NCBI GenBank assembly: GCA_905209435.1
Contig: CAJLTE010000009.1
Span: 1 to 61,040, forward strand
From: an uncultured Blautia sp.
Lineage (GTDB): Bacteria > Bacillota_A > Clostridia > Lachnospirales > Lachnospiraceae
Length of the DNA: 61,040 nucleotides
Reading direction: 5' to 3'
The translations under genes and the position numbers were made by a program. Of the stretch, positions 28,399 to 57,904 are shown one piece after another. The first letter of the stretch is position 1, and each line of letters starts with the position of its first letter. The notes beneath the pieces were generated by a model. It saw only the letters and a list, made by a program, of their open reading frames with translations, was not told the DNA's origin and searched no databases.

Positions 28399-29736
28399 TC
28401 AACAATGATGTTCAGCTTTTGCAAAAGGATTCTCATACACTTCCAGTTCTCCTAATGCCTCATGAATACGCAAAAGCTGGTTATATTTGGCATTTCTGTC
28501 TGATCGGCATGGAGCACCTGTTTTAATCTGACCGGCTCCTGTGGCAACTGCCAGATCTGCGATAAAGGAGTCCTCGGACTCACCTGATCTGTGAGAAATT
28601 ACGGCTCTGTATCCAGATTTCTGGGCCATTTCTACTGCATCCAGTGCTTCTGAAAGGGTTCCGATCTGATTTACTTTTACCAGGATTGCATTGGCAGCTT
28701 CCAGTCTGATTCCGCAGGCAAGGCGTTTTATATTGGTTACAAACAAATCGTCGCCTACCAGCTGGATTCTTTTTCCCAGACGCTCTGTCATTTGCTTCCA
28801 GCCTTCCCAATCATCTTCTTCCAGACCATCTTCTATAGAAACGATGGGAAATTTCTCAATCAGTTTCTCGTAATAATCAATCATCTCACCTGCATCTCGC
28901 AGAACCTCTTCGCCTTTCATCTTTCCTTCACCAGGAAAAACGTATACACCTCGTTCTTCGTCATACAATTCACTGGCAGCTGCATCAATCGCGATACAAA
29001 TATCTTTTCCCGGTTCATATCCGGCTTTTTTTACTGCCTCTATGATCAGTTCCAGAACACTTTCCGAATCAGGAAGATCCGGTGCAAAACCGCCCTCATC
29101 ACCTACTGCGGTTGACAGATTTCTGTGCTTCAGGATGATTTTCAGAAACTGGTATACTTCTGCACACATGCGGATGGCATGTTCCATGTTTTTTGCACCT
29201 ACCGGCATGATCATAAATTCCTGCAAATCTACTGTGTTGTCTGCATGACGGCCGCCATTGAGAATGTTCATCATAGGTACCGGCATCTGCCTGGTATGGC
29301 ATCCGCCCAGATACTGGTATAAGGGGATTCGGAGTGCCGCTGCTGCCGCTCTTGCCACTGCCATGGACACTCCCAGCGATGCATTTGCCCCTACATTGCT
29401 CTTATTGTCTGTGCCGTCGGTATCTATAATTTTTTTATCAATAAAAGTCTGGTTCAGAGCATTTTCCCCAAGGATTGCTTCTGCCAGTTTCGTGTTTACA
29501 TTCTCTACTGCTTTCTGAACACTAAGGCCTACATAACAGTCTTTTTCTCCGTCTCGTAACTCTACTGCCTCAAATTTACCGGTTGAAGCTCCTGAAGGAA
29601 CAATTGCCCTTCCTGTATATCCATTGATCCCTATCACACCTTCGCCTACTGTAACTTCAACTTCTACAGTAGGGTTTCCTCTGGAATCCAGTACTTGTCT
29701 TGCGTGAACCCTTCTTACAGGCAGATAACGTAACAT
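28399..29736 (-). CDS. eno: Enolase
   Basis: 445 residues. It converts 2-phosphoglycerate to phosphoenolpyruvate in glycolysis. Key parts are [17 protein letters not shown], the flexible loop [26 protein letters not shown], the metal-binding [11 protein letters not shown] and [10 protein letters not shown], and the catalytic [14 protein letters not shown]. The start at 29736 follows AGGAGGTTAAAAAA. It is transcribed alone, between its own terminator and a divergent noncoding array. Confidence 0.97.
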
Positions 29737-30098
29737 TTTTTTAACCTCCTGCTTATTTTATGAAATCCGTGAATAATTGCCTCCACTTCGCTGGTGCAGA
29801 CTTCAACAAGCTCTCCCGCTGCCAGTAATCAATGTCTGTACTTCAGCATTTTATTTGTTTCATATGCATAGCATTTCCAGATACTCTGATGAATATGCGC
29901 TATATACAAGCGGTTCTTAAATGATATTTTGGTGTATTGCTCCTTGTATGTCACTTTTTCGTGCATTATACTTCTGCCTCAAAGCCAAATCCTCTCTGGT
30001 AATTTTGTAAATTTCATATAATTTTCAGAATATTTCATTATGTCAAATCGTTTTAATTGTTTCTTTTAAATATTTTTATAAATTTTTAGTTTTTACGC
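29737..30098. other. Intergenic region upstream of eno
   Basis: No gene found. It must hold the eno promoter on the minus strand; no clear consensus is visible. Confidence 0.4.
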
Positions 30099-30127
30099 TT
30101 GACATTCCAATTGTTATCTGTTATAGT
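30099..30127 (+). promoter_or_regulatory. Strong promoter of the repeat-array RNA
   Basis: TTGACA (30099-30104), a 17-nt spacer, and TATAGT (30122-30127). Transcription should begin near 30134. No reading frame of significant length follows before the terminator at 30697-30735. Confidence 0.85.
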
Positions 30128-30168
30128 AAGCTCATAAAACAAAAGGGATTACGGAAAACAAAAAAGCA

Positions 30169-30695
30169 AAGGAGTGAGACCACCGAAAACATAATTTCTT
30201 CTTTATAATTTAAGAAAGCGAGGTACAGACCACCAGAATAGTTAAAATTTCAAATTCATGATTTATAATTTATGAAAGGCAGGTACGGACCACCAAGAAC
30301 TTAAAGTTTTAAATCCAACTAAGTTTTATAAGTCCCTACTAATACAAAGGAAGGTACAGTCCAATGAAAACCTAACAATTTACCCTATTTAAAAGCAACA
30401 GCTCAATAACATAAGGACGGTATAATCCAATGGACATTTAATAATTTATCTTATTAAAAATAACCGACAATCCATACAAGGAAGGTACAATCCAATGGAA
30501 ACTTAATGATTTACCTTATTTAAAAAGCAACATCCATCAATACAAGGAAGGTACAGTCCGATGAGAACTTAACGATTTACCCTATTTAAACTAAATAAGG
30601 AAGGTACAGACCAATGGGACACTAAGTTTTTACAATAACTTTTAAATATAAGTTTATAGAAAGTGAGGTATCATCCCTTGGATACAGAATCTTAA
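30169..30695 (+). repeat. Tandem array of nine degenerate 53-71 nt units
   Basis: Spacing between successive GGTAC cores is 60, 71, 66, 65, 66, 53 and 64 nt. Units 1-3 (GACCACC type) and units 4-8 (TCCAATG or ACCAATG type) form two subfamilies. Unit 9 at 30661-30695 is most divergent. The repeats are too degenerate for CRISPR. Confidence 0.88.
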
Positions 30696-30696
30696 C

Positions 30697-30735
30697 AAGA
30701 GCCACGATGAAAAATAGATCAGTGGCTCTTTTATT
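30697..30735 (+). terminator. Intrinsic terminator of the repeat-array RNA
   Basis: A perfect 9-bp stem AAGAGCCAC (30697-30705) / GTGGCTCTT (30722-30730) is followed by TTATTTTG. It separates the array from pdaA. Confidence 0.88.
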
Positions 30736-30889: not shown

Positions 30890-31735
30890 ATGCGTCTCAA
30901 ATACATATCCCCTGTCAAATTCTTTTCTGCAAGAACCGGACGGATTTTGCTGCTTTTTTGTGCATCTGCACTTGTGGGTTCTGCTGCCGGAAAAATTGTT
31001 TCGCATTTCACGCAGAAACAGATTGCTGTTCCCTCTTCTTCCCAGAGTTCCAGCTGGGGGCTTAGTTTTCAGGAAGAAGGAAAACGTCCTGTGGGAAATG
31101 CCACGATCGAGGAATTGTCTCAGTATGATGCTTTTTTTGCAGAAAATACGGACGAAAAGAAAATCTATCTTACCTTTGATGCCGGATACGAAAATGGAAA
31201 TACACCCGCGATCCTGGATGCACTGAAAAAGCATCAGGCTCCGGCTACCTTTTTTGTTGTGGGGAATTTCATTTCAGAAAACAAGGATCTGATCAAACGG
31301 ATGGAAGCCGAGGGGCATACTGTTGGAAATCATACGATGACGCATCCGGATATGTCAAAAATTTCTACACAAGAATCTTTTCAGAAAGAATTAGCAGGCG
31401 TGGAAGATATTTATAAAGAAATTACCGGAAAAGAAATGACGAAATTTTACCGGCCGCCGCAGGGAATTTACAGTACTCTGAATCTGTCTATGGCGAAAGA
31501 AATGGGATATCATACATTTTTCTGGAGTCTCGCTTATGTGGACTGGTACCAGGATAAGCAGCCAGATCCGCAGGAGGCTATTGCAAAACTGACGAAGCGG
31601 ATTCATCCTGGAGCTATTGTACTGCTACATAGCACCTCTTCTACTAATGCGCAGATTCTTGATGAACTGCTAAGTAAATGGGAAGAGATGGGGTATTCGT
31701 TTCATTCTTTAAATGAATTAGTTTCTTCATCTTAG
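30890..31735 (+). CDS. pdaA: Polysaccharide deacetylase, PdaA-like
   Basis: 281 residues of the NodB family. PdaA enzymes remove the acetyl group from N-acetylmuramic residues during spore cortex (muramic delta-lactam) formation. A membrane anchor lies at about residues 17-37. The catalytic motifs are YLTFDAGYENG, with the Asp pair form typical of PdaA, HTVGNHTMTHPDM with the zinc histidines, FYRPPQGIYS, and IVLLHSTSSTN. A weak GAGG ribosome site precedes the ATG at 30890. It suggests that the host belongs to a spore-forming lineage. Confidence 0.9.
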   Translation: MRLKYISPVKFFSARTGRILLLFCASALVGSAAGKIVSHFTQKQIAVPSSSQSSSWGLSFQEEGKRPVGNATIEELSQYDAFFAENTDEKKIYLTFDAGYENGNTPAILDALKKHQAPATFFVVGNFISENKDLIKRMEAEGHTVGNHTMTHPDMSKISTQESFQKELAGVEDIYKEITGKEMTKFYRPPQGIYSTLNLSMAKEMGYHTFFWSLAYVDWYQDKQPDPQEAIAKLTKRIHPGAIVLLHSTSSTNAQILDELLSKWEEMGYSFHSLNELVSSS

Positions 31736-57782: not shown

Positions 57783-57848
57783 AAAAAAGCTGACACCTTC
57801 TGCGATCAATTAACATTACTTATTAATCAATCGTAGAAGTCATCAGCT
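57783..57848 (-). terminator. Terminator of the fluoride riboswitch
   Basis: On the minus strand GCTGATGACTTCT, shared with the aptamer 3' part, pairs with AGAAGGTGTCAGC, followed by seven T. Aptamer and terminator are thus mutually exclusive. Confidence 0.85.
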
Positions 57849-57898
57849 TAAATCAGCGGTTTTGGTTTCCCTGGGGAGAACTTCATTCCCCAAAATTC
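57829..57898 (-). promoter_or_regulatory. Fluoride (crcB) riboswitch aptamer
   Basis: Minus-strand sequence shows the fluoride consensus: GGGGAATGAAGTTCTCCCC, then AAACCGCT and GCTGATGACTTCTAC. It lies between a consensus promoter and a terminator, upstream of the antiporter gene. Confidence 0.9.
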
Positions 57899-57904
57899 CT
57901 GTTT

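Follow-up and report, generated by a model that had tools for sequence, protein, structure and literature searches.

The window analysed here, the whole stretch of 61,040 nucleotides from an uncultured Blautia sp., carries nine short repeated units between a promoter and an intrinsic terminator, and sequence comparison across related genomes firmly supports the array RNA as a real conserved family. Neither Rfam 15 nor the literature searched describes it, and its carriers belong to one of the dominant bacterial groups of the human gut. The best reading, which we hold tentatively and at a little short of even confidence, is that of a free-standing RNA that would dock several ribosomal subunits and titrate initiating ribosomes.

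The layout of the locus is given in Table 1. A sequence-only reading had described the promoter, the nine units, the terminator and the absence of a long frame, and all of these are in place. It had also described an ATG, two varied codons and TAA in units 4 to 8, which we confirm, and CACC replacing ATG in units 1 to 3, which direct reading bears out. Its count of five units with frames among the nine has to be amended: the five ATG frames stand, but the TTG frame of unit 9 had been missed, so that six of nine units carry one. Units of the window follow each other at 50 to 71 nt. The unit families were recovered by a repeat search of the window, and 96 distinct arrays show its order of parts; the array is thus not a product of chance. 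In the window's ORF list no plus-strand ORF of at least 60 amino acids covers the array, and one 67-amino-acid ORF on the minus strand overlaps its end. A simple terminator scan of the window reported none, because its loop limit was 8 nt while the actual loop has 16 nt; an RNAfold-based search of the window gives the hairpin -12.7 kcal/mol, and places the stem 3 nt from the stop of the terminal micro-ORF (1 nt by eye).

Table 1. Features of the array locus, in positions of the window
Feature	Position	Strand	Remarks
Enolase gene	28399..29736	-	Divergent neighbour; named by eye from translation
CodY-box-like element AATTTTCAGAATATT	30020..30034	.	79 nt upstream of the -35; one mismatch to AATTTTCWGAAAATT
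Promoter TTGACA-17-TATAGT, extended -10	30099..30127	+	-35 TTGACA at 30099-30104, 17-nt spacer, -10 TATAGT at 30122-30127 (11/12 consensus), TG ahead of the -10 hexamer; pattern kept across 72 related promoters
Predicted transcript start, A	30134	+	From spacing and a conserved CA
Unit 1, type A	30160..30195	+	Core GG at 30172; startless; AAAGGAGTGAGACCACCGAAAACATAA
Unit 2, type B	30210..30245	+	Core GG at 30222; startless, CACC
Unit 3, type C	30270..30305	+	Core GG at 30282; startless, CACC
Unit 4	30341..30376	+	Core GG at 30353; mini-frame 30364-30375 ATG AAA ACC TAA (MKT)
Unit 5	30407..30442	+	Core GG at 30419; mini-frame 30430-30441 ATG GAC ATT TAA (MDI)
Unit 6	30472..30507	+	Core GG at 30484; mini-frame 30495-30506 ATG GAA ACT TAA (MET)
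Unit 7	30538..30573	+	Core GG at 30550; mini-frame 30561-30572 ATG AGA ACT TAA (MRT)
Unit 8	30591..30626	+	Core GG at 30603; mini-frame 30614-30625 ATG GGA CAC TAA (MGH)
Unit 9, terminal unit	30655..30690	+	Core GG at 30667; SD AAAGTGAGG
Terminal micro-ORF	30678..30695	+	TTG GAT ACA GAA TCT TAA (MDTES)
Intrinsic terminator	30697..30735	+	AAGAGCCAC-16 nt-GTGGCTCTT and T-run; hairpin 30697-30730
Polysaccharide-deacetylase-like gene	30890..31735	+	Neighbour; named by eye; query for finding relatives

No family of Rfam 15 (4227 families) matches the window's array at its gathering score, the best score over it being 21.1 bits where 55 are needed, and the same holds for the arrays of 14 further loci; this agrees with the sequence-only reading, which had recognised no described RNA family. 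The literature searched, at the level of titles and the starts of abstracts, contained no paper on this RNA. Elsewhere in the window, a fluoride riboswitch (RF01734, 44.7 bits) lies at 57827-57899 on the minus strand, and the far end holds tRNA-Trp and a partial 23S rRNA.

The deacetylase-like query found 80 loci, the closest in Blautia sp. MSJ-9 (95%). The array lies in the flanks of fourteen of them, and in several it occupies the corresponding position, with an enolase-like gene on one side and the deacetylase-like gene on the other. Ten loci present a minimal RNA of four units, A-B-C-D (alignment A1), in which promoter, leader, unit cores and terminator are largely invariant; extra ATG-type units stand between C and D in the window, MSJ-9, B. 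wexlerae and loci L004 and L016. A sequence-only model, R1, recovered the array in all 12 genomes known to hold it, at one main place each, and in 36 of 64 Blautia-genus genomes, and a two-unit model, R2, in 38 of these 64, some genomes in the 12-genome and genus counts having supplied sequences to R1 or R2. Absence from all close relatives, which the sequence-only reading had named as refuting it, is therefore not the case: more than half of the Blautia-genus genomes have the array. Larger searches scored just 7 to 11 candidates per genome and missed others, and their counts err both ways: R1 matched 108 of 397 Lachnospiraceae at E<=1e-3, weak matches included, and R2 matched 15 of 391 class genomes, 7 of them also in the earlier family sample. 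Error in the other direction shows in the 60 regions fetched, 17 of which lacked a two-unit cluster, so that the 108 include false matches. Eight of nine genomes reached through named loci have R2 matches: two Blautia, Faecalicatena contorta, Mediterraneibacter agrestimuris, Faecalimonas umbilicata, Robinsoniella peoriensis and two strains without species name; the ninth, Butyricicoccus pullicaecorum, has none. Units above 9 bits number two each in F. contorta and R. peoriensis and one each in M. agrestimuris and F. umbilicata. Some genomes (for example G022, G207, G223 and G265) have matches on two contigs and perhaps carry two arrays.

Units were found at 117 loci, of which 21 were removed (17 duplicates listed by hand and 4 identical arrays). 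The remaining 96 distinct arrays, that of the window among them, comprise 403 units, and 35 of the 96 are genus or first loci. An array has 2 to 11 units. The 36-nt unit matrix, built from 386 unique units of the 117 loci, reads approximately RAARRRA-GGTACRGWCCA-(CC or AT or TT)-RRAAACNTAA. It selects what it describes, its seed having demanded GG and CC, and within it GG at positions 0-1 and CC at 8-9 are near invariant, with G and A mixed at -4 to -2 and some C or T. The most conserved letters are the GG, CC and A of GGTA....CCA, not the SD. The shared core of the sequence-only reading is upheld in the form GGTA....CCA, near-invariant, but not in its GGA, which is not conserved across units.

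At the place of the start codon, the 303 non-last units with CC at the fixed place (4 of 307 lack it and are omitted from the class counts) have CCA or CCG in 156 cases, ATG or TTG in 112, and something else in 35, mostly AAG, ATC or ACA. CCR thus makes up 156 of 191 non-last startless units; as startless modules are mostly CCR and no random mix of non-starts, selection for CC itself is suggested, a point against the docking reading. Ahead of this place the modules keep a stretch GGTAYRGWCCA behind the anti-SD match, and three codons beyond it there is as a rule a stop. TAA is also kept in CACC units, hence TAA alone is no evidence of translation.

The 307 inter-unit intervals include 128 of 50-54 nt, 50 of 55-59 nt and 11 below 50 nt. 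Some 50-60 nt per site is about one 30S footprint. Intervals below 100 nt are evenly spread over the three phases (95, 95 and 82), so the array is not one long frame; a repeat-protein remnant is likewise rejected, the spacings having no 3-nt phase and stops being frequent. A recurring spacer motif resembling TAACGATTTACCYYA follows 52 of 303 units by a loose pattern, in many arrays. Phage origin was also rejected: five pattern matches in viral contigs do not exceed 6.8 bits with the unit matrix, and plasmid and phage records gave short, low-scoring matches only.

Arrays most often end on a unit with a start codon: the last detected unit is NTG in 68 of 96 and startless in 28. A terminator was found in 86 arrays (none in the other 10), and 64 of these have an SD-led terminal micro-ORF at the terminator (9.5% in shuffles) while 22 have none under the rule applied, the search having taken the best-SD frame of each array, so that a few (e.g. 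L172 and L193) may be chance. Its stop lies within 3 nt of the terminator stem in 58 of the 64, and 51 of the 64 begin MD. Most have five or six codons, often MD[N/T/S]E... Among 59 unique units selected for NTG, the first base is T in 29, A in 28 and G in 2 (TTG, ATG and GTG), and codon 2 is GAC in 26 and GAT in 20; codon 4 is GAA in 28 and GAG in 6 of 58. Single-base differences in codons 2-5 are synonymous in 1256 of 2775 cases when read in frame; the two other frames give 487 of 2518 and 285 of 1205. These figures are descriptive, since the sequence pairs are not independent. By these measures the terminal micro-ORF appears to vary as a coding sequence does, with its amino acids kept. Could the RNA then be a messenger for a micropeptide MD[N/T/S]E.., the upstream units serving as loading or stabilising sites? 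The conserved first residues fit this, but the C-terminal residues vary freely and length ranges from 2 to 12 codons, and we give the proposal very little credence.

Six loci from five class-sample genomes (L236, L242, L243, L244, L247 and L251) hold a variant RNA in which each locus has between one and three ATG units and four of the six share a central stretch resembling CACGACGGTGT. Its terminal frame is LD..K.EQK-like, e.g. MLDIKIEQK, with the TGA inside the terminator stem (by eye). That a terminal micro-ORF joined to a terminator recurs in the variant suggests that this geometry matters. At L243, the variant array and a tRNA gene are followed by a Gut-1 RNA (RF01706, 72.6 bits) at 2101-2175.

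The tight geometry of stop and terminator would also be expected of a cis-acting leader, in which translation of the terminal micro-ORF lets polymerase read into the next gene. Across the 96 arrays, the next downstream gene is on the same strand in 54 and on the opposite strand in 35, while 7 have none in the fetched stretch; the gene is thus opposed in 35 of 89, against such a leader. Nor does a common neighbour family appear among the flanking genes scanned, which lie at loci beyond L111: the commonest Pfam family reaches just 4 among 58 of 89 downstream genes and 3 among 57 of 95 upstream genes. Control in cis is on this evidence highly improbable, and the same two observations, the lack of a common family and the frequent opposite orientation, argue that the array is free-standing. 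Phosphoglycerate mutase (iPGM_N) occurs in 4 of the 58 scanned downstream neighbours, perhaps those of L142 and L143 among them by ORF length, and enolase in 2 of the 57 upstream ones; both possibly reflect just shared ancestry of place.

Do ribosomes engage the units? Predicted pairing to the anti-SD is strongest in startless units (mean -10.3 kcal/mol, n=217), then in NTG last units (-8.9, n=68) and NTG internal units (-8.2, n=112). The window's own genes average -6.4 (39, picked by hand), and startless units after shuffling -5.3 (single-letter shuffles, as in the micro-ORF and promoter tests). A longer match of the units to the 3' end of 16S rRNA, reaching past the SD, was weighed by eye and set aside. 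Counting against engagement, the SD is predicted to be no more open than the rest, with a mean unpaired probability of 0.45 versus 0.54 for whole arrays. Among internal NTG units lacking the usual stop (25 of 112), a nearby stop, one codon away from the usual place, is in frame in 16 and one base off in 3; the corresponding figures are 19 and 16 among startless units (45 of 218). The frame to the stop is thus kept somewhat better in start-bearing than in startless units (Fisher p 0.038), and this weaker retention leaves the reading frame of startless units only putative. Taken as hidden ORFs, 79 of 217 startless units have an upstream start in frame, and 38 and 21 in the other frames; their single-base differences are synonymous in 22956 of 45846 cases in frame versus 12837 of 44456 and 3863 of 38515, again descriptively. 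Of the ribosome engagement suggested by the sequence-only reading, the anti-SD match, the coding-like terminal ORF and the frame retention therefore speak in favour, at the level of sequence, whereas its TAA alone is uninformative.

The internal NTG units might act as minigenes, strong-SD modules that would release peptidyl-tRNA after two or three codons, tie up tRNAs and so slow translation. Leaving aside nine frames longer than 4 codons among the 112, 100 of the 103 short ones have 2-3 codons, 86 end in TAA and 33 have Thr as last sense codon; only these internal NTG units combine a 2-3 codon frame with a strong SD, as toxic minigenes do. Passages of PMC8708949 attribute the toxicity of very short ORFs to peptidyl-tRNA release outpacing recycling, and describe it as rising with a strong SD, short length and UAA, ACT being a toxic codon. 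Three points speak against this explanation: overproduction of the minigenes in those passages did not slow growth, internal NTG units are missing from all ten minimal arrays of A1, and the terminal ORF is longer and acidic. A minigene array is in our estimate quite improbable.

The main weakness of a docking RNA is that GGTA....CCA is better kept than the SD: ribosome binding alone does not explain it. The higher conservation of the core leaves room for an RNA-binding protein, and the array could be a multivalent sponge for a protein that reads GGUACRGWCCA and competes with ribosomes at leaders, the CACC units forming perhaps a small GGAGGU-ACRG-ACCACC hairpin. Beyond the SD, the core is indeed the most conserved part, and the variable number of units is as in known sponges. 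Pairing of the SD with ACCACC is conceivable in CCN units (115 of 179 have T2-A7), and position 7 is A in 82% of them, which would give the GGU/ACC pair, while 70-79% of NTG units favour T. But this GGU-ACC pairing is not lost when halves are swapped between CCN units. The exact 12-nt core also does not exceed its control outside the arrays of 8 genomes (12 versus 23 occurrences), and none of the ten matches inspected out of these 12 lies in a leader of another gene: nine sit in stretches open for 264 codons or more, and at the tenth (L200) the open stretch is at most 86 codons. A protein sponge is on balance unlikely.

The one protein named for this role by the sequence-only reading was of CsrA type. 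CsrA competes with ribosomes at leaders. Among the 64 Blautia-genus genomes, the CsrA family (PF02599) exceeds its cut-off in G063 alone and matches weakly in G053, and it is absent from every array-bearing genome; as the CsrA-positive genomes have no array match and GGA is not conserved, a CsrA sponge in Blautia is ruled out. The other target it had proposed, a small RNA complementary to the core, finds no support either. A small RNA aimed at ribosome-binding sites would be expected to bind repeated SD-like modules, which could then serve as its decoy, but the 12-nt complement is not in excess outside arrays, with 12 occurrences in the 8 genomes against 23 for a reversed control, which leaves such a decoy a faint chance at most.

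We found no selected structure beyond the terminator. In the ten loci, 2 of 29 predicted pairs have changes on both sides, both in the terminator; unit and spacer pair no better than when swapped (z 1.7 and -0.7); and 52 arrays are no more structured than their shuffles (mean z 0.06). A conserved hairpin or a structured RNA, such as a riboswitch or a 6S-like RNA, was accordingly rejected.

A promoter matching at least 10 of 12 positions lies upstream of 79 of 95 arrays; in 285 shuffles the maximum is 10, attained in 24. Those scoring at least 10 with a 17-nt spacer number 75, and filtering at 80% identity leaves 72, of which 32 come from the genus. The promoter of the window is not in this set, probably being too like L001. 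Conserved in the 72 are the extended -10, CA at the position predicted for the start, and a leader rich in A. With a promoter so close to consensus, the array RNA is probably abundant.

Upstream of the promoters we found a box resembling the CodY box consensus given in a passage of PMC5314169. With up to 2 mismatches, it is present in 26 of 95 arrays; shuffling the 95 regions leaves none, and permuting the pattern gives 4 of 285. With up to 3, it occurs at -84 to -76 in 35 of the 72 promoters, sharply at -79 to -77 in 33 of them; 3 of 200 palindromic permutations equal this count, some possibly being the box itself. Conservation is much stronger in the left half, AATTTTCAG, and the poorly kept right half makes another regulator possible. 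The codY gene is present in 61 of the 64 Blautia-genus genomes, and the three without it also have no array match, a number too small to carry weight. According to PMC6256015, the gene of a ribosome-hibernation factor in Staphylococcus aureus, hpf, is under both activation and repression by CodY; by analogy, a link between nutrients and ribosomes is plausible for the array RNA, though no more than plausible.

We propose that 30S subunits would dock on the modules, CCR modules holding them without starting and NTG modules starting tiny ORFs that end at once, while the terminal ORF would park a ribosome at the 3' end of the RNA. The RNA would thereby titrate initiating ribosomes and act as a decoy or brake on translation, its output possibly tied to nutrients via the CodY-like box. 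It may sequester the subunits, spend them on micro-ORFs or present them to something else. A ribosome-docking RNA is the simplest account because it covers the promoter, the terminator, the strong SDs and the spacing, and it is also favoured by the lack of selected structure, the variable unit number and the coding-like last unit. A more specific version, in which the RNA is a ribosome counterpart of 6S RNA, nutrient-regulated and presenting start-site mimics in series that sequester 30S subunits on startless CCR modules or waste them on the micro-ORFs of NTG modules, is compatible with the same sequence features but is rather doubtful. If true, it would set the number of free ribosomes across a major family of gut bacteria; and if the RNA holds ribosomes, translational control would gain a new layer, exerted by an RNA and not by hibernation proteins. 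The conserved frames, most of them five or six codons long and with stops that touch the terminator, offer a natural test case for the role of such tiny frames.

How does the array compare with known systems? With the toxic minigenes described in passages of PMC8708949 it shares very short frames, strong SDs, mostly UAA stops and often a last Thr; those minigenes act in cis on a downstream gene, whereas the array is free-standing and many of its units are startless. As in leader-peptide attenuators, a short ORF directly precedes an intrinsic terminator, but no common gene follows and the next one is often in opposite orientation. Sponge RNAs of the CsrB/RsmZ type carry many short SD-like motif copies in variable number, with their own promoter and terminator. 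The array RNA is like them in each of these respects, and differs in having no conserved GGA, in the absence of CsrA from array-bearing Blautia and in its coding-like last unit. The likeness to 6S RNA is one of idea alone: the array has no selected structure and no Rfam match, it is repeated, and it would mimic translation starts where 6S RNA mimics a promoter, yet in both cases a mimic of start sites would hold the machine that reads such sites.
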